Part shown: positions 15,302 through 39,923 of the stretch, one piece after another | How positions within the stretch are numbered: position 1 is the first letter of the stretch | Layout of the letters: the number at the start of each line of letters is the position of its first letter | NCBI GenBank assembly: GCA_021809895.1 | Contig: JAJZJU010000004.1 | Coordinates: 1 to 51,253 of the forward strand | DNA length: 51,253 nt | From: a bacterium | Lineage (GTDB): Bacteria > Chloroflexota > Dormibacteria > Aeolococcales > Bog-877 | Direction: 5' to 3' | The notes under the pieces: generated by a model | Told to the model about the DNA's origin: nothing | Seen by the model: only the letters and a program-made list of their open reading frames with translations | Database searches by the model: none | Program-made: the position numbers and the translations under genes

Positions 15302-16186
15302 ATGACCGCCGTGGAGGCCGTGGCCGGGAGTTCGGGAGTCGAGCCAGCCCGGGTGCAGATCCAAGTCGTGCTGTACCGGTCCGGCCGCTGGCTCCCCCGG
15401 CTGCTGACGGGACTGCGCCATCTCCTGCCCACCACCGGTGGGTTCACGGTTTCTTTCTGGGACAACAGCCCGGAGGCGGAGGCGGAGAGCGCAGTCGCCA
15501 ACTCGGGGCTCAACGCCACCTACCACCCCTCCCCCAGTGGCAACATCGGGTTCGGGGCCGCCCACAACCAGATGGCAGCTCGGGCTGCGGACCCCTGCGA
15601 GTACCTGCTCCTGCTCAATCCGGATGCGGTCCCTCACTACGACTGCTTGCGCGAGCTGGTGACGGTCGCCGAGCGCGAGCCCCGGGCGGCCCTGGTCGAG
15701 GCGGCGCAGTTCCCCATCGAGCACCCCAAGAGTTACGACCCGGCGACCCTGGAGACCGACTGGTGCTCAGCCGCCTGCCTCCTGGTCCGCCGGCCGCACT
15801 TCCTGGAGCTCGGAGGCTTTGACCCGGCGCTGTTCCTCTACTGTGAGGATGTCGATCTCAGCTGGCGGGCCTGGCTGGGGGGCTGGCGCTGCCTCTACGT
15901 GCCCAGTGCGCGCTGCCTGCACGTGACCGAGGGACAGGATCTGACCAAGGACCGTTCCGCTGAGGGATTCCATAGCCATCTCGGACACCTCTACCTGAGG
16001 CGCAAATACTTCGGAGAGGCGGCGGTCGAGGAGTACCGGGGAGCGCTCGAGGAGCGGCTGGCACCGACCTTGGTGGGGCGGATCCTGGAGGAGTTCGGCC
16101 GGCTGCCCCAGACCAAGTTGGAGCGCTCCGGCAACCCCCACATAATGCTGACCCCGGGAGAGATCTATGCCCAGCGACGCTGGTAA
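15302..16186 (+). CDS. Family 2 glycosyltransferase (rhamnosyltransferase-like)
   Basis: A 294-residue GT-A fold enzyme. The nucleotide-sugar motif appears as LLLLNPDAVPHYD (about residues 101-113), preceded by GNIGFGAAHNQ, and the acceptor-site acidic motif is FLYCEDVDLSWRA (about 178-190). This combination is typical of WbbL/RfbF-type transferases that add rhamnose or related sugars to surface glycans. No membrane helix is visible, so it should act at the inner face of the membrane. Its last 20 nt overlap the next gene, implying co-translation. Confidence 0.87.
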   Translation: MTAVEAVAGSSGVEPARVQIQVVLYRSGRWLPRLLTGLRHLLPTTGGFTVSFWDNSPEAEAESAVANSGLNATYHPSPSGNIGFGAAHNQMAARAADPCEYLLLLNPDAVPHYDCLRELVTVAEREPRAALVEAAQFPIEHPKSYDPATLETDWCSAACLLVRRPHFLELGGFDPALFLYCEDVDLSWRAWLGGWRCLYVPSARCLHVTEGQDLTKDRSAEGFHSHLGHLYLRRKYFGEAAVEEYRGALEERLAPTLVGRILEEFGRLPQTKLERSGNPHIMLTPGEIYAQRRW

Positions 16187-17900
16187 GTACGACTTCGAAG
16201 TCGATCCCCACAACCGCAATAGCACCTACGGCCTCATCTGCGAGCGGATCCCGGAGGGCTCGGCGGTCCTCGACATCGGCTGCTCGTCCGGCAACCTGGG
16301 AGTGGCGCTGGAGCGAGCGCGGGGCTGCCGGGTGGTGGGAATCGACGTCGATGAAGACGCGGTCGGGGTGGCTCGGTCTCGCGGGATCGAGGCCTATGTG
16401 GCGGACCTGACCCGGCAGCCGGCCGAGACGGTGGTCGGCGAGCGCCGCTTCGACGTGATCGTCCTGGCCGACGTCCTGGAGCACCTCAGCGCGCCGGCGA
16501 GCCTGCTGGCACCGGCGGCCGCCCTGCTCAACCCCGGCGGCAGGGTGCTGTGCTCTTTCCCCAACATCACCCACATCGACGTGCAGCTGATGCTCGCCCA
16601 GGACCAGTGGCGCATTCAGCCCACCGGCATCCTCGACGAGACCCATCTGCGCTTCTTCACCGAGGCCAACTTCACCGAGCTCGCCTTCCGGTGCGGGTAC
16701 GAAGTCGTAGCGGTGGAGCGGGTGGTGCTGCCACCACTCGGCACCGAGGTCTTGGAGTATGGCCGGGCCCTGAACCTCGACGGTGGCGAGCAGGAGACCC
16801 TGCAGACGATCTCCCAGCGCGCCAATCCCAACAGCCTGGTCTACCAGTACGTCTTCGAACTGCGGCCGGCCCCGGAGCGGGGTCAGGCCGTGGTGGAGGT
16901 CCTGAGCAGGGTCGGCTACACCCCTTCGGCCAAGACGCAGGACGGCCGCCTCGACGTGATCGTCCGCACCATCGAGGGGCGGCTCCACTACCTCCAAGAC
17001 GCTCTCTATTCACTGGCCGGCCTCACCTATCCCCGGGTGCGCGCCATCGTCTGCGTGGACAGCTCCCCGCAGACGTACGCCGACCAGGTCGAGGAGCTGG
17101 CGAGCCACCTTGACGGTCTTCTCGACGTGGCGGTGACCGTGGTGCCGCCCCACCAGTCGGAGCGGGGGCGTCCCCTCAACTGGGGGTTGGAGCAGGCGAG
17201 CGGTGAGTTCGTCTCCTTCCTGGACGACGATGACGTCTACTACCCCAGCTTCGGCGACACGCTGATCGGCTGCCTGCGCGAACGCCCGGAGGTGACCGTC
17301 GCCTACGGGGTGGGCCAGGTGGTCCGGGGGGAGGCGGCCCCGTGGGGCTTTCGGGCGCTCAGCCACGTGAAGCGATATGACGAGCCCTTTGATAGGGCCC
17401 ACCTGTTCGTCGAGAACTACATCCCCATCAACACCCTGGTGGTGCGTCGCGAGCCCGTGCGGCGAGCCGGGATCCACTTCGACGAGACGCTGCCCATCTA
17501 CGAGGACTGGGCATTCCTGCGCGAGCTCGCGGCGCGCTTCGAATTCTGCTTCGTCGACTCCCTGGTCTCCGAGTACCGCCTGCGCACGGACGGCTCCAAC
17601 GCCGTACCGGAGGGCTCCGAAGAGCGCTGGGAGCGCACCGGCGCGCAGGTCCGCCAGCGGTATTCGGGACAGGCGGTGCGGGTCCCCGCCCACGAGTTGG
17701 CCGATCTCTACGAGCGGGCCAGGGAGCTGGATAGGAGGGTCCGCGAGTTGGACCGTGCCAATGGCGAGGAGATCGCGGCCCTGCGCGCCGAGCTCGGCTC
17801 GGTGCGAGAGCTGAATCACCGCCTGCTCAACTCCCGGAGCTGGCGGCTCACCAGGCCGGTGCGCAGGATCACGGGCTCGAGCCTGCCCGAGGACGGCTGA
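16167..17900 (+). CDS. Methyltransferase-glycosyltransferase (GT2) fusion protein
   Basis: A 577-residue two-domain protein. Residues about 20-190 are a class I methyltransferase (SAM motif SAVLDIGCSSGNLGVAL near 33, then RRFDVIVLADVLEHL and GGRVLCSFPNI). Residues about 260-490 are a GT2 glycosyltransferase with RLDVIVRTIEGR at its start and the metal site FLDDDDVYYP (about 351-360), followed by YEDWAFL. The C-terminus is a charged helix ending LLNSRSWRLTRPVRRI, a tail seen on many polymer-forming glycosyltransferases. The fusion suggests that one protein both adds and methylates a sugar, for instance to cap a chain. It overlaps the upstream GT2 gene by 20 nt. Confidence 0.87.
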   Translation: MPSDAGKYDFEVDPHNRNSTYGLICERIPEGSAVLDIGCSSGNLGVALERARGCRVVGIDVDEDAVGVARSRGIEAYVADLTRQPAETVVGERRFDVIVLADVLEHLSAPASLLAPAAALLNPGGRVLCSFPNITHIDVQLMLAQDQWRIQPTGILDETHLRFFTEANFTELAFRCGYEVVAVERVVLPPLGTEVLEYGRALNLDGGEQETLQTISQRANPNSLVYQYVFELRPAPERGQAVVEVLSRVGYTPSAKTQDGRLDVIVRTIEGRLHYLQDALYSLAGLTYPRVRAIVCVDSSPQTYADQVEELASHLDGLLDVAVTVVPPHQSERGRPLNWGLEQASGEFVSFLDDDDVYYPSFGDTLIGCLRERPEVTVAYGVGQVVRGEAAPWGFRALSHVKRYDEPFDRAHLFVENYIPINTLVVRREPVRRAGIHFDETLPIYEDWAFLRELAARFEFCFVDSLVSEYRLRTDGSNAVPEGSEERWERTGAQVRQRYSGQAVRVPAHELADLYERARELDRRVRELDRANGEEIAALRAELGSVRELNHRLLNSRSWRLTRPVRRITGSSLPEDG

Positions 17901-19467: not shown

Positions 19468-21000
19468 TCAGGGAACCATTTGCTTGGGGTCTGGCTCGGC
19501 GCCCTCACCCCCAGCCTGATGCACCGGGGTGGCCGGAGCCGCTTCCTCGCCGGTCTTCGTCGAGCCGCGGGGATCGCCCGGCCCAAGGTCACCCTCCGGC
19601 TGGTTGGCTGCCGCCAGCGAGGGGGAAGTGCCGCGAGCTCGCTTGCTCCACCAGCGTGCCGCCTTTTTGGTGGTGGCCAGAGGGCCACTGTGGCCGAGCT
19701 CGTAGACAGCCCGACGCAGCAACCGGGAGACCTCCTGGAGGCGCAGCTCAGTGGGGTTCGGCGGGCGCTGGTGGATCCAGTGGTGGCGGGGCTGGTCGGC
19801 TGCCAGGGCCGGGCTGGCGACAAAGCGAAGCAGGGGCTGGGCCACCTGCTCCCAGGTCATGTCGCGGGCGACCTCTTGCACCCGCTCCGAGATCAAGCGG
19901 CGCCGCTCGGGGTCCCGCGCCATCTCCAGGATCGCGTTGCTGAGCGCGTCCACGTCCTCAGCGGGGACTACCCAGCCCAGGTCCCGCTCTGCCACCAGCT
20001 GTGCAAAGCGGTCACCGTCGGTGCAGATTATGGGCAGGCCGCACCACAGGTAGTCGAGCATGCGAGTGCGGAAGGCGTACCTGGTCTCGGCATGGTCGAA
20101 GTGGGTGGAAACCCCACAGTCGGTGGCCAGCAACCAGCGGGAGCGGTCGCTGTAGGCGACCCACTCGTGGTTGAAGAAGACGTGGGCATCGGTCAGCCCC
20201 AGCTGGTCCGAGAGCTGGCGGGCGCGGGCTGGCATCCACATCCGCTCCGGAACAGAAGTGTTGGGATGGTCGGTGGACATGAAGATGAGCTTCAGCGAAG
20301 GCACCGTCTCGACCACCCTGCCCACGGCGCGGATGAGGGTCAAAGGGTCGAACCAGTTGTAGATCCCGCCTCCCCACAGCAGCACCACGTCGTCTTCACC
20401 CAGGTTTCCGACCGGGAGCCTCCTCTCCTCCCGGGACCCATGTGGGGGCTCTTTTGGCAGCCCGAAGGGGACCACGTCGATGAGCTGGCGAAGCGAGTTG
20501 TCCTGGGCCCAGATCCTGGGGGCAACCCGCCCCGCCTCCAGAAGCGCACCCGTCCAGAGGTCGCGCTGGACCTCGCTGGCACACAGGAAGAAGTCACCTC
20601 CTCTCAGCAGTTCGCGCAGGACCTTGCGGATCTCCGAGCTCTCGTGCTCCTGGACCGCCGGTGGCCGGTGCGCCTCCTGCTCCAGCAGGGCGAGCGGGAA
20701 GGGGTCGTAGAGATCGACGATGAGCGGCACCGGCACGCTGCGAAGTGAGGGGTAGCGCACCAGCGCGATCCCCTCCAGCAGGATCGCATCCTGCTGCCGG
20801 GCCAGCTCGTCCAGCTCGATGTGGCTCAGCTGCGGCACGATCCGCAGCGACTCCTGGGCCAGGTCGGTCGCGCCGACTCCCACCAGGGTGACCAGGTGGC
20901 CAGCCTGAGCCAGAACCCGGCCCAGCTCGAAACAGCGGATGCCCGGCCCTGCCATGCGCTTGGCCACCACGTCGTTGGCGACGATCAGCACTCGACCCAC
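19468..21000 (-). CDS. Family 4-like glycosyltransferase (GT-B fold)
   Basis: A 510-residue protein. The N-terminal GT-B half begins GRVLIVANDVVAKRMAGPGI, with the glycine-rich acceptor loop MAGPGIR. The donor half contains LLWGGGIYNWFDP (about residue 214) and the sugar-nucleotide site MLDYLWCGLPIICTDGD (about 330), the usual place of the E-x7-E type motif. A Pro/Ala/Glu-rich tail of roughly 70 residues closes the protein and is probably disordered. The GTG start at 21000 directly precedes strand 1. Divergent from the membrane protein gene at 21088. Probably builds the same surface glycan from the cytoplasmic side; sugar not predictable. Confidence 0.83.
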   Translation of the reverse strand: MGRVLIVANDVVAKRMAGPGIRCFELGRVLAQAGHLVTLVGVGATDLAQESLRIVPQLSHIELDELARQQDAILLEGIALVRYPSLRSVPVPLIVDLYDPFPLALLEQEAHRPPAVQEHESSEIRKVLRELLRGGDFFLCASEVQRDLWTGALLEAGRVAPRIWAQDNSLRQLIDVVPFGLPKEPPHGSREERRLPVGNLGEDDVVLLWGGGIYNWFDPLTLIRAVGRVVETVPSLKLIFMSTDHPNTSVPERMWMPARARQLSDQLGLTDAHVFFNHEWVAYSDRSRWLLATDCGVSTHFDHAETRYAFRTRMLDYLWCGLPIICTDGDRFAQLVAERDLGWVVPAEDVDALSNAILEMARDPERRRLISERVQEVARDMTWEQVAQPLLRFVASPALAADQPRHHWIHQRPPNPTELRLQEVSRLLRRAVYELGHSGPLATTKKAARWWSKRARGTSPSLAAANQPEGDLGPGDPRGSTKTGEEAAPATPVHQAGGEGAEPDPKQMVP

Positions 21001-21087: not shown

Positions 21088-22521
21088 ATGACTCCGCCTG
21101 CGGCCGATCGGGCCGGGCTCAAAGCCCTTCGTGTACGGATAGAGACCCTGCCTGCTCCCACTCCGCCTGCCGAGAACCCTTCCTTGGAGCCTCCCGCCTC
21201 GGAGGCGCAGAGGTCGCCGCGCCGCCACATCTGGAGCGCACTGGTGTGCCTGGTGATGGCGGTGCCGGTGGGGCTCGACTTCTGGTTCATCCACAGCTAC
21301 GCAGTCAACGTCCCCTTCGCCGACAGCTGGAACGGCACCCTGCCATCGATCCGGGCGATGGTCCAGGGGCGCCTGACCTTCTCCCTGCTCTGGCTGCCCC
21401 ACAACGAGAACCGGATGCTGGTCCCCAACCTGCTGCAGGCCTTCGTGGACAGCCACACCCGCGTCAACTCCGTGTACGACATGTACCTGAGCGCGGTCCT
21501 CATGACCATCACCCTGGCCCTGCTCATCTGGCTGGCCCTGCGCACCACCGAGATTCCCCTGATCTGGCTGGTCCCGATCCCGTTCTTGTACTTCAGCCTG
21601 GTGCAGGTGGGCAACCTGCTGTGGGCGTTCCAGCTGGCCTGGATGCTGATCCTTCTGTGCACCCTTGTCTGCCTGTGCGCACTGGAGGCAGGCGGCTCCG
21701 GCCCCGGGCTCTTCCTGCTGGCCTGCCTTGCGGCGGTGGTCGCCTCCTACTCTTCGCTGCAGGGCCTGCTGGTGTGGCCGGTCGGATTTGTTTACGCACT
21801 GATGCGAGCCCGGTCGCGCTTCCTGCTGGGCGCCTGGATCGTGCTCGGAGTTGCGGTCACCGCCTTCTACGAGTGGCACATCGGCAACATCTACACCGTC
21901 ACCAGCCCCACCTACGCTCTCAACCACCCGGTGCTGGCGGTGCGGTTTTTGCTCCAGCTCATGGGCAACATCGTCCCGGTGCACCACACCGATTTCGCCC
22001 TGATCCTGCTGGGCGCCAGTGCCCTGGTGCTCTGGGGCGTGCTGCAGCGCAAGGTCCCCGCCTCGCGACTGCGCCTTCCCCTGGCTCTGTGGCTGTCGGG
22101 ACTTCTGTTCGACATCATGGTCACGGTCGGCCGGCTCCAGCTGGACGCGCCCCTCAGCAGCCGCTACACCACCTACGGCCTGGTCTTCTTGATCGGGGTT
22201 TACCTGGGCGCGCTGACATTGCTGAACCCGCCCCACCAGCTTCGCTCTCTGCCCGGCTTCCTGATGGGAAGGCCGTGGCGGTCGGCCCTGACCGGGCTGG
22301 TGCTGGCAGCGGTGGTGGCGCAGGTGGTCTGGTCCATCCCCAACGGCATCGAGCAGGGCCGCGCCACCCTGGCCAGCCGGGACCAGGCGGCGCTGGTGTT
22401 GCGCGACTTTCGAGGTGAGCCCAACGCGGTCCTGGCCCACGACCTTTACCCGCCATCGGGCGCCTACGTGCGCGGCTGGGCCAGCTGGCTGCAGGCGCGC
22501 CACTGGTCGGTCTTTGCCTGA
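21088..22521 (+). CDS. Polytopic membrane protein, candidate GT-C glycosyltransferase (paralogue 1)
   Basis: A 477-residue protein with a Pro/Ala-rich cytoplasmic N-terminus of about 45 residues and roughly ten or more hydrophobic helices. After the first helix comes NVPFADSWNG (about residues 72-81), then WLPHNENRMLVPNLL (about 101-115). An Asp pair in the first external loop is the general signature of GT-C enzymes that use polyprenyl-phosphate sugars. That functional reading is inference; I do not recognise a named family. The gene at 22798 encodes a clear paralogue with the same motifs, 276 nt downstream in the same direction. Start is the ATG with the most family-like N-terminus. Confidence 0.75.
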   Translation: MTPPAADRAGLKALRVRIETLPAPTPPAENPSLEPPASEAQRSPRRHIWSALVCLVMAVPVGLDFWFIHSYAVNVPFADSWNGTLPSIRAMVQGRLTFSLLWLPHNENRMLVPNLLQAFVDSHTRVNSVYDMYLSAVLMTITLALLIWLALRTTEIPLIWLVPIPFLYFSLVQVGNLLWAFQLAWMLILLCTLVCLCALEAGGSGPGLFLLACLAAVVASYSSLQGLLVWPVGFVYALMRARSRFLLGAWIVLGVAVTAFYEWHIGNIYTVTSPTYALNHPVLAVRFLLQLMGNIVPVHHTDFALILLGASALVLWGVLQRKVPASRLRLPLALWLSGLLFDIMVTVGRLQLDAPLSSRYTTYGLVFLIGVYLGALTLLNPPHQLRSLPGFLMGRPWRSALTGLVLAAVVAQVVWSIPNGIEQGRATLASRDQAALVLRDFRGEPNAVLAHDLYPPSGAYVRGWASWLQARHWSVFA

Positions 22522-22797
22522 GCGAGGCACGACCCTGGATGCGGTGGGGCCGGGTCCCCGTCAGCGGATGGACCCTGCTTCAGCACTCGCTATCAACCAC
22601 CGCACCTCCGGCCCGGCAGCCGGTTCGGCGAGCCGGCGCAGGCCAGAGACCGGAGGCCTCCCTTCTGCCCCATCGGAGCGTGTGCCTCAGCTGCTTTCTT
22701 GCGTCGGAGACCCCGCCTCAACCAAGCCGAAGGCCGGCCCCGCCGCCCCCTCCCGGGGATGGGTCCCGCTCGGGCCACTCCTTACAATCGGACATCC

Positions 22798-24123
22798 ATG
22801 AGCATGACGCGGCCGCGCCTTTTGAGCGAGGCGCGCACCACCGGTCCGGCGGTGGTGCTGCTGGCGGCGGCGGCCGCCGCCTACACAGCCTACGTCTACA
22901 TCTTCAGCGTCAACGTCCCCTACCAGGACGAATGGGCGATGGTGATCCTCTACCGCCTGACCGTGCATGGTCAGCTCACCCTGACCGCTTTGTGGACCCA
23001 GCACAACGAGAACCGGATGCTCTTCCCCAACCTGCTGATGCTGGTGCTGGACCATCTCGACCACCTCAACACCAGGGTGGAGATGTTCGCCAGCTGCGCC
23101 CTCCTGCTCCTCACCGTGGCGGGGCTGGCAGCGGTCTACCGTTGGACCACCAAGGCCGCCCTGCTGTGGTTCGTGCCGGCGGCGTTTGTGATCTTCAGCT
23201 GGCTGCAGTGGGCGGTCGCCCTGCAGGGGTTCGCGATCGCCCTGTACATGATCCTGTTCTGCCTGGTGGTGAGCCTGATCGCGCTGACCCTGGCCGAGCG
23301 TCGTCCATGGTTCCTACTCCTGGCGATCGCGGCCGCCACGGTGGCGTCCTACTCATCCACTCAGGGACTGGCGATCTGGCTGGCGGGTTTGGTGTTCATC
23401 CTGGCCCGGCAGCGGCGGCGGCGGCAGCTGGTGCCCTGGATCGCCAGCGCCTGCGTCATCTCCGCCATCTACTGGATCGGGTTCATCTGGGTCGACACAG
23501 GTGGGGGGGTGCGCTGGGCAGTGGCCCATCCTGGAGTTTCACTTCATTACTTCTCCCTGCTGGTGGGAGGGACCGTCCCGGTCTCCCGGCTGCTCCACCT
23601 GGGCACGACCCAGCAGGAGGTGATCGGCTTTGGCATCCTGGTGTTGGGAGCGGCTGCCTTCGGCTACTGGGTCTGGCGGCCGGCGTCCGGGGAGTGGCTC
23701 GCGGTGCCACTGGCCCTGATCGGGTTCGGGGTCCTGATCGACTTCCTTATCACCATCGGGCGGGCCCACCTGGGCCTGCAGCTGGCAACCAGCTCACGCT
23801 ACACCCTGTTCAACCTCTGGCTGGTGGCCGGGGTGTGGCTGGCTTGGGCCGCGATCGCGAGCCGCACCCGCCTGCCGGCGGCCCGAGGGTTGGCCGCGAT
23901 CCTGGTCCTGTTCTACCTGCTGGACGTGGTAGGCAGCTACCACTCCGGTCTCATCGAGGGAAGGATCACCCGGGTCCAGCGGGAGCAGGCGGTCTCCCTG
24001 GTGCGCCACTACCAGACCGCACCCGAATCACAGGTGGTGCCGCTGGTCTACCAGGTCTATCCCGGCTTCAAGCCGCTGGCGGAGTTCCTGGCCGCCCACC
24101 ACCTGAGCGTCTTCTACCACTGA
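22798..24123 (+). CDS. Polytopic membrane protein, candidate GT-C glycosyltransferase (paralogue 2)
   Basis: A 441-residue multi-helix protein that repeats the plan of its upstream neighbour: first helix, then NVPYQDEWAM (about residues 38-47), WTQHNENRMLFPNLL (about 65-79), VASYSSTQGLAIW matching VASYSSLQGLLVW in paralogue 1, and a TIGRAHLGLQLATSSRYT region matching TVGRLQLDAPLSSRYT. The shared motifs across the whole length point to tandem duplication followed by divergence. The DE pair after helix 1 fits the catalytic acid of GT-C enzymes (inference). It lacks the Pro-rich N-terminal extension. Lies among glycosyltransferases, so it may transfer a lipid-linked sugar outside the membrane. 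Confidence 0.75.
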   Translation: MSMTRPRLLSEARTTGPAVVLLAAAAAAYTAYVYIFSVNVPYQDEWAMVILYRLTVHGQLTLTALWTQHNENRMLFPNLLMLVLDHLDHLNTRVEMFASCALLLLTVAGLAAVYRWTTKAALLWFVPAAFVIFSWLQWAVALQGFAIALYMILFCLVVSLIALTLAERRPWFLLLAIAAATVASYSSTQGLAIWLAGLVFILARQRRRRQLVPWIASACVISAIYWIGFIWVDTGGGVRWAVAHPGVSLHYFSLLVGGTVPVSRLLHLGTTQQEVIGFGILVLGAAAFGYWVWRPASGEWLAVPLALIGFGVLIDFLITIGRAHLGLQLATSSRYTLFNLWLVAGVWLAWAAIASRTRLPAARGLAAILVLFYLLDVVGSYHSGLIEGRITRVQREQAVSLVRHYQTAPESQVVPLVYQVYPGFKPLAEFLAAHHLSVFYH

Positions 24124-24238: not shown

Positions 24239-25264
24239 TCAGATCCGACCGCCGCGGATCGCCTCCTGGATCCAGGGGATGACCTCGTCCAGCATCTGGC
24301 TGAGGCTGGTGGTGGCCTCGAAACCCAGTACCCGCCGGGCCTTCTCGGTGGAGGGCACCCTTCTTTGCACGTCGTGCTCGAAGGGGGTGTCGCAGACGTG
24401 GCGGAAGGGAGTCTCCGCCCCCTTGATCTTGGCCCAGATCAGCTGGGCCAGCTCCAGCACGGTGGTGGACTCCTGGGTGGAGAGGTTGAAGTCCTCGTTC
24501 AGGGCGGCGGGGTGCTCCATCGCCAGCACGATGCCCTGAGCCAGGTCGCCGCCGTAGGTGTAGTGGCGGATCTGGGAGCCATCCCCCAGGATGTGCAGGG
24601 GGTCCTGCCCCTTCAGCACCTTCTGCACCAGGTCGGGGACGACATGGCTCATGGCCAGCTTGACGTTGCCGCTCTCGATCTCCACATCGCCCAGCGCCCG
24701 CTCCTCTCCGATCCCCACGCAGTTGAAGGGCCGGATGATGGTGTAGGGAAGGCCGTACTGCTGGTGTGCGGCCCGGGCGAAGTACTCCACCGCCAGCTTC
24801 TGGAAGCCGTAGGAAGACATCGGCGGCGGAACCTCTTGCTCCTGGCCCTCGTAGGACGGCCAGCGGTCGGTGCCCTCGAAGACCATGGACGAGCTGAGGT
24901 AGGTGACCTTCTCCAAGCCGCCGTCGCGGTGGGCTCGGATGGCGGCATCGCAGGAGGAGGCGATGATCCTCTCGTTGGTCGCCAAGAGGTCGTAGGCGTA
25001 GGTGTGGAAATACGAGATCCCGCCGATCATGGCGGCCCCGGCGATGAAGTGCTGGCAGCCGTCCAGCAGGGAGTACACCAGCTCGCTGTCGCGGGCGTCG
25101 CCTTCGACCAGGCGGTAGTTGGGGTGGCCGTCGTAGGAACGCGCCACCGGCCCGTACTTGGAGTGGTCGTCTAGCCCCACCACCTGGTGGCCCTGCTGCA
25201 GCAGCGCCTCCACCACATACCCACCGATGAAACCCGCCGAGCCCGAGACCAAGACCTTCGCCAT
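24239..25264 (-). CDS. NAD-dependent sugar-nucleotide epimerase/dehydratase
   Basis: A 341-residue extended short-chain dehydrogenase. The NAD-binding motif GSAGFIGGYVVEAL is at residues 8-21, the catalytic Ser/Thr region is LSSSMVFEGTD (about 124), and the active-site YxxxK is YGFQKLAVEYF (about 151). Late motifs such as RPFNCVGIGE fit the UDP-glucose/GDP-mannose epimerase group. It is the last gene of a three-gene minus-strand operon, 5 nt after the GT2 gene. It probably converts the uronic or hexose nucleotide made by the upstream dehydrogenase. Exact substrate not determinable. Confidence 0.88.
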   Translation of the reverse strand: MAKVLVSGSAGFIGGYVVEALLQQGHQVVGLDDHSKYGPVARSYDGHPNYRLVEGDARDSELVYSLLDGCQHFIAGAAMIGGISYFHTYAYDLLATNERIIASSCDAAIRAHRDGGLEKVTYLSSSMVFEGTDRWPSYEGQEQEVPPPMSSYGFQKLAVEYFARAAHQQYGLPYTIIRPFNCVGIGEERALGDVEIESGNVKLAMSHVVPDLVQKVLKGQDPLHILGDGSQIRHYTYGGDLAQGIVLAMEHPAALNEDFNLSTQESTTVLELAQLIWAKIKGAETPFRHVCDTPFEHDVQRRVPSTEKARRVLGFEATTSLSQMLDEVIPWIQEAIRGGRI

Positions 25265-25269
25265 TCAGA

Positions 25270-25998
25270 TCACCCCTTGTAGGGGCGCCGGCTGCCGTAA
25301 CCGGGCAGGAGCGCCACCAGATACCAATGCAGATAGCGCGGAATCCACTCTCGCACCTTGAAGTTGGACTGCCCCTGGGTGCGATCCCGCCAGGTGGTGG
25401 GGACCTCGACCACCCGCAGGCCCAGCCGGTGCGCCTTGGCGACCATCTCGATTCCGATCTCGAACCCGGCATCGGACTCGATCCCAACCTCGTCGAGGAA
25501 CGCTTTGGAATAGGCCTTGAAGGAGTTGGTGGCGTCGTGGGTGCCCACCCTGGTAAGGGCGTGCAGGGAGAGGCCTGCGGCACGCGAGACCAGGCCCTTC
25601 AGGGGAGGTCCGCCCAGCTGGCGGCCACCGCGCATGTAGCGGGAGGCGGCCGCCACCGCAGCCCCCTGCTCCACCATGGTGGTCAACTGCTCTATCTGGG
25701 CCGGGTCGTCGCTGCCGTCCGCCATCGTCACCACCACCACCGGTGAGCGGGCGGAGGCGATGCCGCTCCTGATGGCACCGGCCGGGCCCGGGCCCACGTC
25801 GTTGAGCAGAGGGCGAACCCGGCGGTCCCTTCGCGCATACTCCGCGGCCGGCTCCGCCGTGGAGTCGCTGGGACGGTCGTAGACCACCAGCAGCTCGCAG
25901 GGGATGCTGACCCGGTCCAGGATCCGGTCCAGGCACGCAACGATCTCATCCCCCTCGTTGTAGGCCGGGATGACCACCGAGACCCTCGGCCCGGTCAA
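25270..25998 (-). CDS. Family 2 glycosyltransferase, dolichol-phosphate-mannose-synthase-like
   Basis: A 242-residue GT2 enzyme. It shows VSVVIPAYNEGDEIV (residues 6-20), the metal motif TMADGSDDPAQI (about 90) and a C-terminal region NFKVREWIPRYLHWYL that should sit on the membrane. Proteins of this size and motif set usually charge polyprenyl phosphate with a sugar, which would provide the donor for GT-C enzymes such as the two membrane proteins nearby (inference). The start is TTG 25998, overlapping the TGA of the dehydrogenase gene (TTGA), which indicates translational coupling. Confidence 0.85.
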   Translation of the reverse strand: MTGPRVSVVIPAYNEGDEIVACLDRILDRVSIPCELLVVYDRPSDSTAEPAAEYARRDRRVRPLLNDVGPGPAGAIRSGIASARSPVVVVTMADGSDDPAQIEQLTTMVEQGAAVAAASRYMRGGRQLGGPPLKGLVSRAAGLSLHALTRVGTHDATNSFKAYSKAFLDEVGIESDAGFEIGIEMVAKAHRLGLRVVEVPTTWRDRTQGQSNFKVREWIPRYLHWYLVALLPGYGSRRPYKG

Positions 25999-27185
25999 AC
26001 TCCGCTTCCCTGGCCCCGCAGGTTGGTCAGGTCCACCACCGGCACCGAAACCTGCAACTCACGGTACTGATGATGGGGAGCTCCGATCACCAGCAGCTCC
26101 GACTCCGCCAGCACCTCCTCCAGGGGAACCAGATTGGGGTCGATGGTGACGTAGGGGTCGGTGCAGAGCACCCGCTTGGACTTGAACTGCAGGATCCTCT
26201 TCAGCCGGTAGCTCAAGCTGGAGCGGATGTCGTCGGACTCGCCCTTGAAGGCCATCCCCAGGATTCCAACGGTCATCGAGGCCAGGTCGAAGCGCCGCTC
26301 CAGCCGAGCCACCGTGTAGAGTGGCAGCCCCTCGTTGATGAGCATCGCCGAGTGGCCCAGGGTGAACTGGTTGTTGTTGAAGGCGGCCAGCTGCATGGTG
26401 TCCTTGAGCAGGCACGGGCCCGCCGCCAGCCCCGCCCCGGGCAGGTCCTGGGCCCGAGGGTAGTTGTGGGCCAAAGCGCCCCGGATGCGATCGTAGTCCA
26501 GCCCGAAGTCGTTGGCGATCATGTAGAGCTGGTTGGCGGTGGCGAACTTGATGTAGCGCCAGGTGTTGGTGAAGAGCTTGGCCAGCTCGGCCTCCTCCGG
26601 CTCCAGCTCGACTATCTCCTTGGTGAGCTGGGAGAAGAGGGCTGCCGCCCGAGCCCGGATCTCCGGGGTCCTGCCCGACACCAGCTGGGGGAGGGAGTGG
26701 AGCTCGGTCATCGCGTGACCCTCGGCGATCCGCTCCGGGCAGAAGGCGACGTCGACTTGGAGACCCTGCTCCTGGAAGAGCCGCTCCACCATCCTGGTCA
26801 CCCCGGGGTAGAGGGTGCTGCGCAGCACCAGCAGCTGGCCCGGGACCAGGTGCGGGCTCAGCTTCTCGATCTCCTCGGGGACTCCCAGCGCCTCCGGGTT
26901 CAGGTGCTTGTCGATGGGGGTGCCGATCACGACCACCACGTTGGCGGCTTGCCTCAGCACCGCCGGGTCGGTGCCGGCTGTGAACTGACCGCCGGCCAGG
27001 GCGGAGGCCAAGGCCTCCTGCGCCCCCGGCTCCTGGAACGGCATGCGCCCGGAGTTGACCATCTCCACCGCGCGCTGGCTGGTGTCGTAGACCGCAACCC
27101 TCAGCCCCCGGCCAGCGAAGGCCAGGGCCAGCGGCAACCCCACATGGCCGCAGCCGCCCACGACCGCGACATCGACCCTTCCCAT
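25995..27185 (-). CDS. UDP-sugar 6-dehydrogenase (UDP-glucose/UDP-ManNAc dehydrogenase family)
   Basis: A 396-residue nucleotide-sugar dehydrogenase that oxidises the C6 alcohol to a uronate in two NAD+-dependent steps. The NAD site is VAVVGGCGHVGLPLALAF (residues 4-21). The catalytic Cys lies in GPCLLKDTMQ (about 260), a variant of the usual GGxCxxKD. Strand motif AFCPERIAEGHAM points to the UDP-N-acetylmannosaminuronate/WecC-like branch more than to UDP-glucose dehydrogenase. ATG 27185 gives the normal N-terminus; the frame is open to 27287 but without similarity. First gene of the operon with the DPM1-like GT2 and the epimerase. Confidence 0.88.
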   Translation of the reverse strand: MGRVDVAVVGGCGHVGLPLALAFAGRGLRVAVYDTSQRAVEMVNSGRMPFQEPGAQEALASALAGGQFTAGTDPAVLRQAANVVVVIGTPIDKHLNPEALGVPEEIEKLSPHLVPGQLLVLRSTLYPGVTRMVERLFQEQGLQVDVAFCPERIAEGHAMTELHSLPQLVSGRTPEIRARAAALFSQLTKEIVELEPEEAELAKLFTNTWRYIKFATANQLYMIANDFGLDYDRIRGALAHNYPRAQDLPGAGLAAGPCLLKDTMQLAAFNNNQFTLGHSAMLINEGLPLYTVARLERRFDLASMTVGILGMAFKGESDDIRSSLSYRLKRILQFKSKRVLCTDPYVTIDPNLVPLEEVLAESELLVIGAPHHQYRELQVSVPVVDLTNLRGQGSGV

Positions 27186-27366
27186 TCTGAGAGCAGATGT
27201 TAAGGGATGCTGGGTCCGGCTCCCGCCGTGAATGGAGTCCGAGCCCAGAGACCTCCCGGACGCAGGGATCCCGAGCCCCTCCGCCAAACGAGGAGCTGAC
27301 TGGTGACCGCGCCCGGCACTACATTTCGTCCGTGGCGGCCGCCGGGGGACGTCCGTGGATCCGGTC

Positions 27367-29763
27367 TCAGGGAGAGGGTGGCGGGGTGGGCCCGTAGGCC
27401 ACCTCGAAGCCGGCGGTGGAGAGCGCGGAGGGGGTGGACACCTGCTGCCCGTTCTGCACCATCAGGCTCTCCACCTCCGAGGAGTAGGGGCCGGTCAGAC
27501 CCAGCTGGGTAAAGGTGGTGGTGGTGTAGTCCGCCATCTGGCTTATCGCGCCGTTCACCTCGGGCGCCTCCACGATCCACTCGGCAGACGAGAGCGGCCC
27601 CGTGTAGCTCTGGTCGGTGGTGAAGCTGGCACCGCTGGTGGTGTCGACCAGGGAGATCGACCACTGGCCGGCGCTCTGCTGGGTGATGGTGACCTGCAGC
27701 TGGTCCCCGGGGGCGACCTGCATGGTGGTGATCGTGGTCTCCGTGCTGGGCAGGATCTCCCACCAGGGAATGATGTAGAAGCTGCCGGGATTGTTGGGGT
27801 CCTCCGTCTCCAGGATCCCGGCCTGGATGAGGCTGGAGTTGGTGGCCCCGTCGATCCCCACCCACTCCGCCATGTAGGTGTTGGTCTGGCCCTGATAGAG
27901 GCTGGGCACGGTGAAGGTGCCGGTCACCCCGGTGTAGGGCCCGGTTCCGAAGTAGTAGCCCGACCAGTTTGGTGACTGGACGGTCCCGGTGGTGGGCGGG
28001 GTCACCGTCAGCGAGAGCTGGGCGATTGCCGTCTGCGGGGTCGGAGAGGAGGAGTCCGTCACCCTCACCTCGAAGCTGAACGTCCCCGACTGCTCGGTCC
28101 CCCCCGAGATGAGCCCCTGCGGGCTCAGGGTCAAGCCCGAAGGAAGAGAACCGGAGGCCAGCTGCCAGCTGTAGGGAGCGACCCCGCCCGTCGCCTCCAG
28201 CCCGTCCGAGATCGCGGTGCCGGCGGCACCCTGGGGAAGGGTTGTGGTGGTCACCGCCAGCGGGGCCTGCGTGCTGGGGTCGCCGACGAAGTACCCGAAG
28301 GCATCCATGACCGCGTCGGCCGACCCGGCGTGGTTGTAGATGGTGGTGGCGCCACCGGAGCCCAGGGTGGCGATGGTGAGGTTGGGGACGGTCTGACCGG
28401 CCGCCCAGTTGACATCGGACGCGAGCGGCCGTGAGCCGCCCGGGTAGACGGTGAAGTAGCTGGCCTGGGTGGTGTCGGTCGCGGTCACGTTGCTGACCAC
28501 GGCGGTCGCTGCGGCCGCGATCCCGTCCTGACCGGCGACCACCTGGGTCAGGGTCTGCCCCGCTCCTAGCGGAGAGCCGCTGATGCGGGTGTCGAGCAGA
28601 CGGACCGGGGTGATGGGGATGAACATGCTGGCGTTGCTGGGGGCCGCCTGGCCCTGGGTGAAGTAGCCGCTGACGTCCACCACCAGCTGGGCCGTGCCGG
28701 TGTGGTTGTACACGGTCACCTGCCCGGTGGGCCCGACCGGAACCACTACCCGGTTGGCGACGGTCTCCCCGGCCGTCCAGTTGAGGTCGGAGCTGGTGGG
28801 AACGCTGCCTCCCTGGGGGTAGACGCTGAGGTATCCCGCCTGGGTGGTGTCGGTCACGGTCACGTTGAGGAGCACCGCCGCCACCCCGGCCGCGGGCACA
28901 TCGCCGGCTCCGGCCGCATCCACGTTCAGGGTCGCCCCCGGCTCCAGGGTGTCGCCGCTGTAGGGCAAGCCGCTGCCCGGCCTGGTGTCGACGATCCGGT
29001 CGGGTGGAAGCGGCACGTAGCTGCCCGCCACCACGCCGCTGGCGGCGGGCGCGAAGTAGCCCTGCAGATCCGCCAGCACCTGGGTGGAGCCGGCGTGGTT
29101 GTATATCGTCACCTGGCCACCCTGCCCGACGGGCACGATCACCAGGTTGGGGACCGTCTCACCCGCCGCCCAGTTGAGGTTGGAGACCACAGGCCGCGCG
29201 CCCGCAGCCGGGTAAAGGGTGAGGAAGCTGGCCTCGGTCGTGTTCGTCACGGTGACGTTGAGCGCGACCGCGACCGCGGTGCTGGGCACGCTGCCACCGA
29301 CCACGGTGAGGTTCAGCGTCTGCCCGGGGCCCAGGGGACCGGGGCCCGACCTGGTGTCGAGGATGCGGGTCGGAGCCAGCGCCGTGTAGACACTGCCGGT
29401 GGCGGCGGTTGAGGTGGCCAGGGAACCGGCTTTGATCTGGAGGCCGGCCCTCGCGTCGGGCCAGGGGTGGAGCTTGGCCAGGGTCCCGGCACCGATCCGC
29501 AGCGAGGTCCCCTGGACCAAGGCTGGAACGTGCGTCCCCAAGGCTGGGGGTGGAGCTTCGGTGAGGCGGGCGGCCATGGACACCCCCGATGGGCCCACCG
29601 CCTGGGCGGCTGCGCCGCCGCCAATGCCGGCAACCAGCGCCGCCCCGGTCAGAACCCAGAGCATGGGCGCCAGCGACCCTCTTGGGCGATGGCTTGCGCC
29701 GACCCGATGACGGGAGCGGAGCCCTCCTTCCGCCCAGGCCCGGACGCCTTGGTTATCAGTCAC
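27367..29763 (-). CDS. Secreted modular protein: three LDTR repeats, Ig-like domain, G1 (eqolisin) peptidase domain
   Basis: A 798-residue exported protein. A signal helix lies at about residues 34-53 (LWVLTGAALVAGIGGGAAA). Three LDTR repeats follow at about 123-240, 250-370 and 380-493, then a putative Ig domain (about 500-590). The C-terminal 200 residues match the G1 glutamic-peptidase family: NWSGYYFGTG, AEWVGIDGATNSSLIQAG with the candidate catalytic Gln (about 646), and AEWIVEAPE with the candidate Glu (about 728). Members are usually acid-active secreted endopeptidases, so an acidic habitat is possible. GTG 29763 is the start; the upstream gene ends 8 nt earlier, so the two are co-transcribed. 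Confidence 0.87.
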   Translation of the reverse strand: MTDNQGVRAWAEGGLRSRHRVGASHRPRGSLAPMLWVLTGAALVAGIGGGAAAQAVGPSGVSMAARLTEAPPPALGTHVPALVQGTSLRIGAGTLAKLHPWPDARAGLQIKAGSLATSTAATGSVYTALAPTRILDTRSGPGPLGPGQTLNLTVVGGSVPSTAVAVALNVTVTNTTEASFLTLYPAAGARPVVSNLNWAAGETVPNLVIVPVGQGGQVTIYNHAGSTQVLADLQGYFAPAASGVVAGSYVPLPPDRIVDTRPGSGLPYSGDTLEPGATLNVDAAGAGDVPAAGVAAVLLNVTVTDTTQAGYLSVYPQGGSVPTSSDLNWTAGETVANRVVVPVGPTGQVTVYNHTGTAQLVVDVSGYFTQGQAAPSNASMFIPITPVRLLDTRISGSPLGAGQTLTQVVAGQDGIAAAATAVVSNVTATDTTQASYFTVYPGGSRPLASDVNWAAGQTVPNLTIATLGSGGATTIYNHAGSADAVMDAFGYFVGDPSTQAPLAVTTTTLPQGAAGTAISDGLEATGGVAPYSWQLASGSLPSGLTLSPQGLISGGTEQSGTFSFEVRVTDSSSPTPQTAIAQLSLTVTPPTTGTVQSPNWSGYYFGTGPYTGVTGTFTVPSLYQGQTNTYMAEWVGIDGATNSSLIQAGILETEDPNNPGSFYIIPWWEILPSTETTITTMQVAPGDQLQVTITQQSAGQWSISLVDTTSGASFTTDQSYTGPLSSAEWIVEAPEVNGAISQMADYTTTTFTQLGLTGPYSSEVESLMVQNGQQVSTPSALSTAGFEVAYGPTPPPSP
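28285..29395 (-). repeat. LDTR three-repeat cassette, copy B
   Basis: Repeats begin ILDTRSGPGPLGPG (short), IVDTRPGSGLPYSG (long insert) and LLDTRISGSPLGAG (short), the same short-long-short order as in copies A and E. Repeat 1 here is closer to repeat 1 of the protein at 47724 (LNLTV.GGSVP...VALNVTVTNTT) than to repeats 2 or 3 of its own protein. Confidence 0.85.
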
Positions 29764-29771
29764 GCTGTCGG

Positions 29772-30915
29772 CTATCCGTACCAGCCGTAGACGTCGACCA
29801 CCAGGTCGGTGCTTCCCAGCGAGCGGTTGATAAAGGTGATCGAGCCTGCGCTCCCGACCGCCATGATCACCAGGTTCTCGGCGGTCTGGCCCTTGCTCCA
29901 GTTGACCTCGGAGGTCTGTGGCACCGGCTGGCCGCCCGGGCCCACCATCAGGGCCCCGGCCCCGGCGGTGTTGGTGACGGTGACGTTGATGGCCACCGAG
30001 GTGATGCCGCTGACGGGCAGCCCCGCCAGCCCTCCCAGGTCGACCGTCAGCTGCTGGTCGGGCCCCAGGGTCTGGCCCGCGTAGGCCTGGCCGCTGCCGG
30101 TTCTGGTGTCGACCGCGCGGGCGGGCACCACCGTCTGCAGGGGGGTGCCGCTGGCGCCGTACCAGCCGGCGACGTCGAGGATGACGTCGACTGTCCCGGA
30201 GTGGTTGTAGATGGTCACCTCACCGCTCTGGCCCAGCTCCATCACCACCTGATTAGCGGCGGTCTGGCCGGCCAGGAAGTTGATGTTGGACGCCTGCGGC
30301 TGGACCGCGCCGGCGGGAAAGACGGTGAGGAAGCTGGAAGCGGTCGCCTCGGTCTCGGTCAGATTCATCACCACCGCCATGGCGCCGCTGGAGGGGATGC
30401 CGCCGACCCCGGCCACCTGCACCGTCAGCGACTGTCCCGGGCCCAGGGCCTGGCCGGCGTAGGGGTGCCCGCTCTTGGGCCTGGTGTCCACTATCCGTTG
30501 AGGATATACCGAGTTGAGCAGCCCGCCAGCGGGACTCGAGGTGGACGAGTACCAGCCCTCCACGTCCACCACCACCTGGGTCGTGCCGTAGGCGTTGAAG
30601 AGGGAGATGGCACCACCGCGACCGAGCGTGACCAGGGCCAGGTTCGCCTTGGTCACCCCCGCCTGAAAGTCGACGGTCGATGCCAGCGGCACCGGGACCC
30701 CGGTGGGATATGCCGTCACGTATCCGGCCGAGGTGGGGTCGATCACGGTGATGTTGACCAGGGCGGCCTGGGCGCCGGTGGCGGGCACCCCTCCCTCACC
30801 CGCCACCTGCACCGTGATGGTGCCGCCCGGACCGGGAGGCTGGCCGCTGCCGGGGAGCCCGGAGCCGGTCCTGGTGTCCTCGATGCGAGCGGGCACCAGG
30901 GGCGTGTAGCTGGCG
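29772..30915 (-). repeat. LDTR three-repeat cassette, copy C
   Basis: Repeats begin RIEDTRTGSGLPGSG, RIVDTRPKSGHPYAG and RAVDTRTGSGQAYAG. All three have the long insert, unlike the short-long-short order of copies A, B and E, and the last two end in GWY instead of GYF. Confidence 0.8.
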
Positions 30916-32660
30916 GCCGCCGAATAGATGAAGCTGTCCAGGCCCTGGGCCGGGCTCGCCCCCAGCGTGGTCTCCACCGAGACGTTGACGAATCCCGGCG
31001 GCCCGGCCGGCGCGGTCGCCGTGATCTGGGTGGCGGAGTTCACCGTGAAGTTGGGGGAAGGGTTGGGTCCGAAGTAGACCGCCTGGGCGCCCAGCAGGTT
31101 GGCACCGGTGACGACAACCTGGGTGCCCCCCGCCGCCGGGCCCTGGTTGGGGCTCACCGTGAGGACCTGCGGGGGCTGACCCTGGAGGGTGGTCCCGATG
31201 TTGGTGAGCGTGGGGGGGGACTGCCCGGTGGCCAGCTGCAGCTGGTCCCAACCCTGGGTCGGGCTGTAGGAGCCCGACACCGATTCGGTCATGACGCCGG
31301 TGAAGATGATCGGGCCAAGGCTGGTGTTCTGGGCGCCCCACTGGCTGAGGGCCTCCCACTCGCTGGCCATCCCGGTGTAGTAGATCTCCGGCACCGAGCA
31401 GGTGGCGGGAATCCCCCAGGCGACCTGGTAGACCTGCGAGACCGTCCAGCTGTCGGCGCTGCCGCTGCCACCCAGGACGTCATCGCCGTAGTCCGCCAGG
31501 AAGCCGACCTGGCTCAGAGAGCAGCTGTACTTGGCCGGCGAGGCCGTCGAGTAGCCCTGGACCCAGTCCACGGTGGGGGTTCCGGCATACCAGTTGCCGC
31601 TGCTGGACTGCTCCATGTCGCTGGCGCCCCACATCGTGATCGGCGCCGCCAGGTTCGCGGTCGGGGTGGCGGCGACCACCTGCTGGTACCAGGCCTGTCC
31701 GGAAGCCTGCATCTGCGTGTCGCTGAGCGAATACCCGGGATCCACCCCGTTGAGGGAGTTGCTGGTGCCGGCGGCCAGGGTGATGGAGGGGGTGCCAGGG
31801 CCGTGGTCGGACTCGTAGCCCGCGATCCAGTCCGACATCAGGGTGGAGATGGTGGCGTCCGGCACGCAGACCGAGCCGCCGAATATCTGCGCCCCGTATT
31901 CGGTGGTCGCCGTGGGCACAAAGCAGGGGGCGCCGAAATCTAGGATCACGAGACCCGGGGGGGAGGGGGGATAGGTTGCCTGGCCTTGCTGGAAGAGAGG
32001 ACAGGAGGTGGCGGGCCCGGTGGCGCACTGGCTGACGTAGGACTGGTACTCGTAATAGGAAGGAGACGCCTGGGGAGGAAGGACGGCCGCCTGGTTGGTG
32101 ACGGTGGCGCCGGAGTTGAGGCTGTCCGCCAGCAGGTTGGCGCTGGTGCTGGAGGCCGCCCCGGCCATCCCCACCCCCTCCTGGCATCCGCTCTTGGATT
32201 GCGTCCCCAGCTTGCCGGTCGCCAGATCGAGGGAGCGGTAGGAGGAGGAAGCGTCTCTGGTGCAGGCCACCTGGGAGTTGGCGGCCAGGATCGTGAGCGG
32301 CCCCGAGCCCGGCAGGAGATGGAGGCTCTGGGACTGCCCGGAGATCTCGGCCACCGCCCCGGTGCCGGGGTGGCCGGGCCTGGTCCCCGCCAGCACCAAT
32401 TGGGTGGGTCCCACCTGCCAGCAGCTGGTGGGAAGGATGAGTGCTGAGCTGATCGGCAGGTTGAGACAGGGGACGGAGTGGGGTCTGAAGGTGGGAGCGG
32501 CCACGGTCGAGGCACTGAGGGGAGCCAGGGGACCATGCGGACTGGGACCCTGCGCTGCGGGAGCCGAGGGAGCGCCCAGGGCGATGACGGGCACAGTGAC
32601 CAGCCCGAGCAGGACCGCGGTCAGCCGACTCCGGGAGATGGCTCTTGGGGCGAGGTGCAT
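29772..32660 (-). CDS. Secreted modular protein: TIM-barrel-like N-terminal domain, IPT/TIG domain, three LDTR repeats
   Basis: About 962 residues from ATG 32660, which opens a signal peptide (LTAVLLGLVTVPVIALGAP). Residues about 180-480 contain spaced beta strands each ending in polar residues (LVILDFGAPCF, ITLAAGTSN, ITMWGASDMEQ, VGFLADYGDD, IIFTGVMTE). This suggests a TIM barrel, with an Asp-x-Glu pair (SDME) where GH25-type lysozymes have theirs; activity is speculative. An IPT/TIG domain (VLTVSPNQGPAAGGTQVVV) is at about 497-580 and three LDTR repeats run to the C-terminus, the last ending DVYGWYG. No good ribosome site precedes the ATG, so the start is uncertain. Co-directional with its neighbours, 8 nt before the G1 peptidase gene. 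Confidence 0.78.
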   Translation of the reverse strand: MHLAPRAISRSRLTAVLLGLVTVPVIALGAPSAPAAQGPSPHGPLAPLSASTVAAPTFRPHSVPCLNLPISSALILPTSCWQVGPTQLVLAGTRPGHPGTGAVAEISGQSQSLHLLPGSGPLTILAANSQVACTRDASSSYRSLDLATGKLGTQSKSGCQEGVGMAGAASSTSANLLADSLNSGATVTNQAAVLPPQASPSYYEYQSYVSQCATGPATSCPLFQQGQATYPPSPPGLVILDFGAPCFVPTATTEYGAQIFGGSVCVPDATISTLMSDWIAGYESDHGPGTPSITLAAGTSNSLNGVDPGYSLSDTQMQASGQAWYQQVVAATPTANLAAPITMWGASDMEQSSSGNWYAGTPTVDWVQGYSTASPAKYSCSLSQVGFLADYGDDVLGGSGSADSWTVSQVYQVAWGIPATCSVPEIYYTGMASEWEALSQWGAQNTSLGPIIFTGVMTESVSGSYSPTQGWDQLQLATGQSPPTLTNIGTTLQGQPPQVLTVSPNQGPAAGGTQVVVTGANLLGAQAVYFGPNPSPNFTVNSATQITATAPAGPPGFVNVSVETTLGASPAQGLDSFIYSAAASYTPLVPARIEDTRTGSGLPGSGQPPGPGGTITVQVAGEGGVPATGAQAALVNITVIDPTSAGYVTAYPTGVPVPLASTVDFQAGVTKANLALVTLGRGGAISLFNAYGTTQVVVDVEGWYSSTSSPAGGLLNSVYPQRIVDTRPKSGHPYAGQALGPGQSLTVQVAGVGGIPSSGAMAVVMNLTETEATASSFLTVFPAGAVQPQASNINFLAGQTAANQVVMELGQSGEVTIYNHSGTVDVILDVAGWYGASGTPLQTVVPARAVDTRTGSGQAYAGQTLGPDQQLTVDLGGLAGLPVSGITSVAINVTVTNTAGAGALMVGPGGQPVPQTSEVNWSKGQTAENLVIMAVGSAGSITFINRSLGSTDLVVDVYGWYG

Positions 32661-32871
32661 GGAGATGGAGCCGGGAACCTCAAGGAGACGGACGATGAGG
32701 CGGAGGCCGGCGCCGTGGCGCCTCTTCACCTCCACCGCTGCCAGGGTAGACGACAGGGGCAGTCCAGGGGGACGTTCGGCTGTGACCTTGTGGTAACGAT
32801 GCGCAGGGTCCAGGATGGCCACGGCCGGGAGCGCCAGGGCTCGCCGGCTCCGCCTCGGCTGATGGCTGATC
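32661..32871. other. Short intergenic gap inside the secreted-protein run
   Basis: 211 nt between the stop of the C39-LDTR gene and the start of the TIM-barrel-like gene. The minus-strand frame of the latter remains open across it but shows no family-like sequence. It may carry an internal promoter; none is clear. Confidence 0.35.
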
Positions 32872-39399: not shown

Positions 39400-39923
39400 C
39401 ATGACCGTCCGATCACACTGGCCTGGCGGGACTCTGGATCAGACCGCGGTCTGGGGTCGCCACCGAACTCTCGGGGTCGAGGCGTTCCGTTGGGAGCAGA
39501 GTGCCTTCTCAGGCACGACCCACCGTGATCCCAGGTGGAACGAGGTCTTCCCATCGCCTCCAGCCGCCCGAGGGAGTCGATCCCGGATTCCGCAACAGGG
39601 ATGACGGCTTGAAACAGAAAGCGCCCACGGGATGCGGAAAAGAGGCAGGACGCCAGGCGCAGGCGTAGTGCCTAGGCCGAGCTTCGGTCGGTCGGGTAGC
39701 TCGGCAAAGTTGGCCTCCCGGGCGAGCAACCACAGGCTCCGAGGGCAATAGATTGCCCGACCGGGGCTACCGGCTCATGTCCCTGACGACCCCGGTCGTG
39801 GGCCCGGCGGGACTTCCATCATGCAAGAGGGGGTGGGTCCGCAGCCCAAAGGGACGAACTGGACGGCTCTGAAGCGGATAAAGGGTGGGGCCCAGGCCGC
39901 ACCAAGGAGGGACGAAGACCGCG
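39400..39923. other. Intergenic region before the integrase
   Basis: No gene supported on either strand. AAGGAGGG at about 39904-39911 provides the ribosome site of the integrase. No direct repeats marking an attachment site could be picked out by eye. Confidence 0.35.

Follow-up and report, generated by a model that had tools for sequence, protein, structure and literature searches.

Two adjacent genes inside the glycan cluster of a bacterial contig encode polytopic membrane proteins, and the question raised by this locus is to which family such paired proteins belong and what they may do beside their neighbours. The window, i.e., the whole analysed stretch of 51,253 nucleotides (contig C143 of genome G000, 2.5 Mb in 159 contigs), carries them on the forward strand as ORF A (21088–22521, 477 aa from the ATG at 21088) and ORF B (22798–24123, 441 aa from the ATG at 22798). 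Both are real coding genes by their codon-position composition, with a GC3 of 0.89 and a strong codon-position bias. Note that the two ATG starts are provisional, as the open frames reach further 5′, to GTG 20821 for ORF A and to TTG 22699 for ORF B.

The ORF A and ORF B pair and its conserved residues

ORF A and ORF B are 34% identical over 424 aligned residues (E 2e-53), and three motifs can be read directly in each of them in identical order, as the initial annotation had described: NVPFADSW in ORF A and NVPYQDEW in ORF B, then the HNENR region (HNENRMLVPNLL in ORF A and HNENRMLFPNLL in ORF B), and finally SSRYT. The pair had also been called tandem paralogous. Adjacency and paralogy hold, but the two proteins fall in separate well-supported lineages, which argues against a recent tandem duplication. 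Indeed, in a 33-row tree (rows of 250 aa or less, i.e., L047, L052 and L054, being omitted), ORF A clusters with proteins of another genus that are linked to the gene triad described below (support 100/99), and ORF B falls in a different clade (support 100/98). On these sequence relationships, ORF A and ORF B are old paralogues that have come to lie side by side, and the A-then-B order is also kept at a second locus, in genome G002.

Counting both ORFs, the window's genome holds four members of what we call the HNENR family. With this genome included, a family match was obtained in 15 of the 61 genomes of the relatives search and in 15 of the 301 genomes of the phylum search, and members were found in genomes labelled Dormiibacterota, Chloroflexi, Actinobacteria/Actinomycetes, Bacillota and Elusimicrobia. 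Two members also lie about 3.6 kb apart in a distant genome of the phylum, G072 (L186:4321–5679 and 9311–10690), with no triad in the stretch examined.

The conserved residues can be placed in each protein. In ORF A, Asp79 (21322–21324, + strand) occupies an invariant column and starts the first helix after TM1 (DSSP helix 79–92), HNENR (residues 105–109; 21400–21414, +) corresponds to the conserved columns H105 to R109, and SSRYT (residues 357–361; 22156–22170, +) contains R359, conserved in at least 90% of the rows. In ORF B, Asp44 (22927–22929, +) lies directly before helix 45–56, which follows TM1, HNENR (residues 69–73; 23002–23016, +) is in the first external loop, Arg322 (23761–23763, +), placed at the external end and ahead of the SSRYT loop, is invariant (100%), and SSRYT itself (residues 332–336; 23791–23805, +) shows R334 in 93% and Y335 in 97%. 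The invariant positions of the 29-row alignment are D, W and LW, together with two residues of HNENR, its second N and its R; more distant members carry DEW...HNEHR instead. D44 is 100% conserved over the 42-row alignment and is the sole acid invariant across these members, with no second invariant acid. The acidic residues first noticed must be separated within the DxW motif: the Asp is invariant, whereas the following Glu is variable and is Ser in ORF A.

Lys and Arg density reaches 0.185 at the predicted cytoplasmic ends vs 0.052 in the external loops, and it is higher inside in 41 of 41 members (those with enough countable residues, of 42). Since these charges are concentrated on the opposite side in all 41 members, the D motif is predicted to be external, and the cytoplasmic placement that would have spoken against a GT-C reading is not what the charge distribution indicates. 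Mean conservation is 1.99 bits in the external loops without the C-terminal tail (1.80 with it) vs 1.09 bits at the cytoplasmic ends. PMC12041525 places the catalytic Asp58 of PimE at the JM1 apex and equates it with the Asp of ALG6, ArnT and PglB; the position of D44 parallels it, making D44 a candidate catalytic residue. The initial proposal that acids just after the first helix sit at the GT-C catalytic place agrees with this as regards the Asp, D44 being invariant in 42 rows and predicted external, but the two-acid form of the GT-C motif shortly after TM1 (DxD or similar, in which D may be E and x may be missing) is not carried by every member, as no second acid is invariant. In addition, R322 and R334 lie, in the ORF B model, at the external end and loop between helices 295–325 and 333–357, a predicted placement that agrees with the C-terminal TM cluster of GT-C enzymes, whose external loop carries a conserved R/K according to PMC6801728.

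Fold and relation to named families

The GT-C-like reading gains most from the predicted structures. AlphaFold models, built from sequences of the window and of related loci, were confident for both proteins (pLDDT 94.2 and pTM 0.93 for ORF B; pLDDT 89.6 and pTM 0.87 for ORF A), and both show the transmembrane module of the GT-C fold, including helices within the first external loop; their helix lists contain no large C-terminal external domain. In the structure comparisons, all 50 matches listed for each model were GT-C-fold proteins, the best listed reaching Z 16.8 (rmsd 5.1, 349 residues) for ORF B and Z 16.7 (rmsd 5.1, 353 residues) for ORF A. The matches listed include STT3, Pmt4, ALG12, EmbB, AftB, ArnT, PglB and PimE, aligned over about 250–375 residues, and no transporter, the kind of match that had been named as contrary evidence, is found among them for either model. 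Nearly all chains that reach Z 5 are also at Z 8 or more (Z ≥8 for 57 of 996 and 58 of 992 chains; Z ≥5 for 59 of 996 and 60 of 992, i.e., just two more each), which sets the GT-C block clearly off from the rest. By itself, Foldseek was weaker, its best E-value (1.9e-3) being above 0.001, and its first eight rows were GT-C enzymes. The predicted models therefore support membership of ORF A and ORF B in the GT-C superfamily by fold.

At the sequence level, no Pfam or NCBIfam model matched ORF A or ORF B, no Pfam model matched the family as a whole, and neither PMT_2 (PF13231) nor GT87 (PF09594) was found over the ORFs and 22 members; the family is thus unnamed in these collections, as had been suspected. 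PF13231 itself has two matches in the window's genome, on contigs C130 and C14. Using hhalign with a 42-row profile (fragment L065 left out), the PMT_2 proteins of the same genomes gave a score of 50.6, a probability of 74% and a P of 2.9e-5, and the match was collinear over 184 columns from TM1 onward. The reversed PMT_2 control scored 22–24, one unrelated reversed control (the Wzy set) reached 37.5, and a 29-row profile vs PMT_2 gave a score of 37 and a probability of 21%. This sequence link to PMT_2 is suggestive. The GT87 set stayed at noise (score 21–26) in a test of little power, as the positive control of GT87 vs PMT_2 failed too, and GT87 membership by profile was not retained. In the HMM–HMM comparison with GT-C families proposed at the outset, the PMT_2 set was thus best, at a moderate probability, and the GT87 set was at noise. 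Because the PMT_2 link is moderate, the reversed Wzy control reached 37.5 and the GT87–PMT_2 control failed, it is the fold that carries the GT-C argument.

Other candidates were set aside. The Wzy_C set from the same genomes was at noise against the family (hhalign score 18–21), which discards a Wzy-type polymerase, and weak Pfam matches such as ORMDL, none of them seen in more than one member (E 8e-4 to 1), were attributed to chance; the lowest E-value among them belonged to DUF6251, in one distant member. A PDB sequence search with a 22-row profile returned two chance matches and no GT-C sequence match. Literature searches by motif, RgtE, GT87 clusters and Dormibacterota glycosyltransferases, covering few subscription papers, found nothing on the HNENR family. 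As judged from the predicted models, the HNENR proteins are a new family inside the known GT-C superfamily, without a name in Pfam or NCBIfam.

Genes linked to the family

Downstream of ORF B, on the strand opposite to the ORF A–ORF B pair, the window carries three genes, referred to as the triad: an SDR epimerase/dehydratase (24239–25264, −; Pfam Epimerase E 1.3e-40) that recurs beside the family, a DPM1-like GT2 predicted to be a polyprenyl-phosphate-sugar synthase (25270–25998, −; Glycos_transf_2 E 2.7e-22), and a UGDH-like nucleotide-sugar dehydrogenase (25995–27287, −; NCBIfam TIGR03026, 250.7 bits with a cut-off of 189.8). The DPM1-like enzyme of the initial annotation was confirmed, its best solved relative being a dolichol-monophosphate mannose synthase (E 2.5e-17). 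As to which sugar the triad would make, the dehydrogenase passes the general nucleotide-sugar dehydrogenase model alone and the SDR is below every cut-off; epimerases and UDP-glucuronate decarboxylases are among the solved SDRs closest to it. On the other side of the pair, oriented divergently, lies a GT4-like glycosyltransferase gene (19468–21000, −), a neighbour that family genes also have in L029, L030 and L043. Elsewhere in the window, a single ORF (16167–17900) fuses a methyltransferase domain to a GT2 domain, two regions (27370–35253 and 9224–11725) encode large, probably secreted proteins with Peptidase_A4, IPT/TIG and Peptidase_C39-like domains, and a phage-type integrase gene (39885–41408) is found about 12 kb past the glycan cluster.

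The linkage was followed over 30 loci from a genome scan, which include L029, a near-copy of the window (MAG DS3.bin64). A complete triad accompanied a family gene in 13 of the 30 loci, and for the SDR the count was 14; a stop-to-stop ORF search was used for these counts because ordinary gene calling missed part of the triad genes where the DNA is GC-rich. The 16 others had no triad gene in the stretch examined, where several contigs end. Order and strand vary, with co-directional runs in L036, L039 and L052. As an example, L036 shows dehydrogenase, SDR, GT2 and family gene on one strand, and L039 shows family gene, ArnE-like SMR gene, dehydrogenase, SDR and GT2. No triad genes were found near the other two copies in the window's genome (C81 and C147). 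On the 33-row tree, in which L050 is marked as having the triad though the SDR alone was found there, triad linkage changed at least three times on well-supported branches.

Within the window's own family of genomes (18 genomes, G000–G017), with SDR presence counted at E 1e-60 or better, all 9 SDR-positive genomes have an HNENR member vs 3 of the 9 SDR-negative ones (Fisher p 0.009, relatedness ignored), and at 9 of the 10 places where the SDR occurs a family gene lies on the same contig, less than 7 kb away. Outside this family of genomes, the SDR occurs in 27 of 43 genomes and just 1 of these 27 has an HNENR member, on another contig; thus, the triad does not need the HNENR family.

What then adjoins the triad elsewhere? 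Among the 28 SDR places outside the window's family of genomes, 20 were examined for neighbours; GT2 was present in 20/20 and the dehydrogenase in 19/20, the remaining contig ending first. Near the triad, GT87 was found in 5 of these loci, a second unnamed polytopic family (FWAEDG...YNGYLQ..SRL, hereafter FWAEDG) in 5, and nothing recognised by the models used in 10. FWAEDG members, which stand beside the same dehydrogenase–GT2–SDR set, are L165:3659–5005, L166:3301–4851, L167:1745–3028, L176:7844–9181 and L180:3050–4384, the model having been built from four of the five loci that it then matched; L167 additionally has two matches to the HNENR profile. No Pfam match was obtained in the FWAEDG members searched, and FWAEDG vs the HNENR family gave an hhalign probability of 94.6% over 323 columns, i.e., a remote profile match. 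Since GT87, FWAEDG or HNENR genes adjoin the triad, it is read as a donor set for different GT-C enzymes: the triad seems to serve several of them, HNENR proteins being one kind. As a tentative extension, on which we would not insist, HNENR and FWAEDG might form a separate GT-C clan swapped with GT87 beside a conserved donor set in several lineages, the donor chemistry remaining constant and the outer transferase (linkage or acceptor) changing.

Within the genes and models covered, the window showed no flippase gene. The one locus with a linked flippase candidate is L039, whose ArnE-like SMR gene (L039:9586–9933) lies between the family member and the triad; searching the loci with this protein returned itself and a weak match in L038 only, and no PF00893 match turned up in any of 21 genomes from the window's relatives. 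GtrA genes are present on other contigs of the window's genome.

Possible function and comparison with known systems

Taking fold, conserved residues and gene linkage together, ORF A and ORF B are probably GT-C-fold glycosyltransferases of an unnamed family, putative enzymes that would use a triad-made polyprenyl-phosphate sugar outside the membrane. Their likely, predicted activity is to transfer a sugar carried by a polyprenyl monophosphate, on the outer face of the membrane. The inverting transfer from a polyprenyl-linked sugar donor that characterises GT-C enzymes would agree with the gene linkage to a DPM1-like synthase. The dehydrogenase and the SDR enzyme would convert an NDP-sugar into an activated sugar, the DPM1-like GT2 would load this onto polyprenyl phosphate inside, a flippase would turn the lipid-linked sugar to the outside, and ORF A or ORF B would then transfer it. 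In such a scheme, the invariant Asp starting the first helix after TM1 would act as catalytic base, the lipid phosphate would be held by the conserved arginines close to the C-terminal TM cluster, and HNENR would give the pocket of external loop 1 its shape; that ORF A and ORF B give two products from one donor is a guess. By analogy, the proposed pathway fits the multi-component scheme of GT-A synthase, flippase and GT-C transferase set out in PMC11127046 and PMC8035078.

A GT-C fold does not necessarily imply catalysis. PIG-U, a subunit of GPI transamidase, is thought to be a non-enzymatic structural or acceptor-binding partner, and GPI transamidase U chains are among the matches listed (7wld_U, Z 13.4 for ORF B and 12.8 for ORF A). 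With the activity of ORF A and ORF B only predicted, a comparable structural or acceptor-binding role can be imagined, but we regard it as unlikely: non-catalytic relatives would be expected to lose both the Asp and the Arg, whereas all 42 rows keep the Asp at the catalytic position and the Arg residues are retained, and the family gene adjoins the triad where other genomes carry GT87.

The nature of the donor deserves the same attention, as STT3 chains rank at the top among the matches listed for both models, which would suit an STT3/PglB-like transferase with a lipid-diphosphate oligosaccharide donor rather than a polyprenyl-monophosphate sugar. However, the Z differences are below 1 and amount to ties, with Pmt4, ALG12 and EmbB about as high; the linked DPM1-like gene makes, by homology, monophosphate donors, and both models are without the large C-terminal external domain, so that this donor appears slightly less probable still than a non-enzymatic role. 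The least credible possibility, to which we give hardly any weight, is that ORF A and ORF B are transporters, flippases or Wzx/Wzy-type polymerases: polytopic proteins inside a glycan cluster could be expected to include such functions, but no transporter is among the matches listed in either structure comparison, the Wzy_C profile comparison is at noise and Pfam gives no match. We therefore retain the reading of ORF A and ORF B as putative GT-C transferases using a polyprenyl-monophosphate sugar.

Under this reading, a membrane-protein family without a Pfam or NCBIfam name receives a predicted fold, a hypothesis on its active site and a likely pathway for its donor, the linked triad being a testable route to the sugar donor; it is an addition to a known superfamily and brings no new principle. 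Moreover, the exchange of transferases next to a single donor set hints at a way in which these poorly known bacteria might diversify the glycans on their surface.

Among known systems, STT3/PglB, Pmt4, EmbB and AftB resemble the HNENR models at Z of about 13–17 but show only about 6–15% identity in the structural alignments, and the HNENR models are without their large external C-terminal domain. PimE, which we take to be a GT87 member, shares the GT-C fold (Z 13.1), and GT87 genes occur near the triad in 5/20 loci outside the window's family of genomes; the HNENR family differs by other conserved motifs and by a profile match to the GT87 set that does not exceed noise. In PMC12041525, the first helix after TM1 likewise carries the catalytic Asp of PimE at its tip. 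In the GtrA/GtrB/Gtr, CsbB–GtcA–YfhO and GT136 systems, as PMC11127046 and PMC8035078 present them, a polyprenyl-phosphate-sugar synthase also works with a GT-C transferase, with a flippase between. A linked synthase and GT-C gene, as in these three-component systems, is seen in 13/30 HNENR loci, which differ in their additional link to a dehydrogenase and an SDR and, in the window, in that no linked flippase was found.

The Arn pathway comprises Ugd, ArnA, ArnC, ArnE/F and ArnT. ArnT and PMT_2 resemble the HNENR proteins by their GT-C fold (5ezm, Z 14.3) and PMT_2 is the best profile match among the sets tried, but the HNENR family has no PMT_2 hmmscan match and carries its own HNENR signature. 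The triad SDR is single-domain, without a formyltransferase part, and no aminotransferase or deformylase was identified in the triad; in contrast, the linked dehydrogenase, SDR and ArnC/DPM1-like GT2, to which L039 adds an ArnE-like SMR gene, resemble the Arn set, and the comparison may be taken as one of logic.
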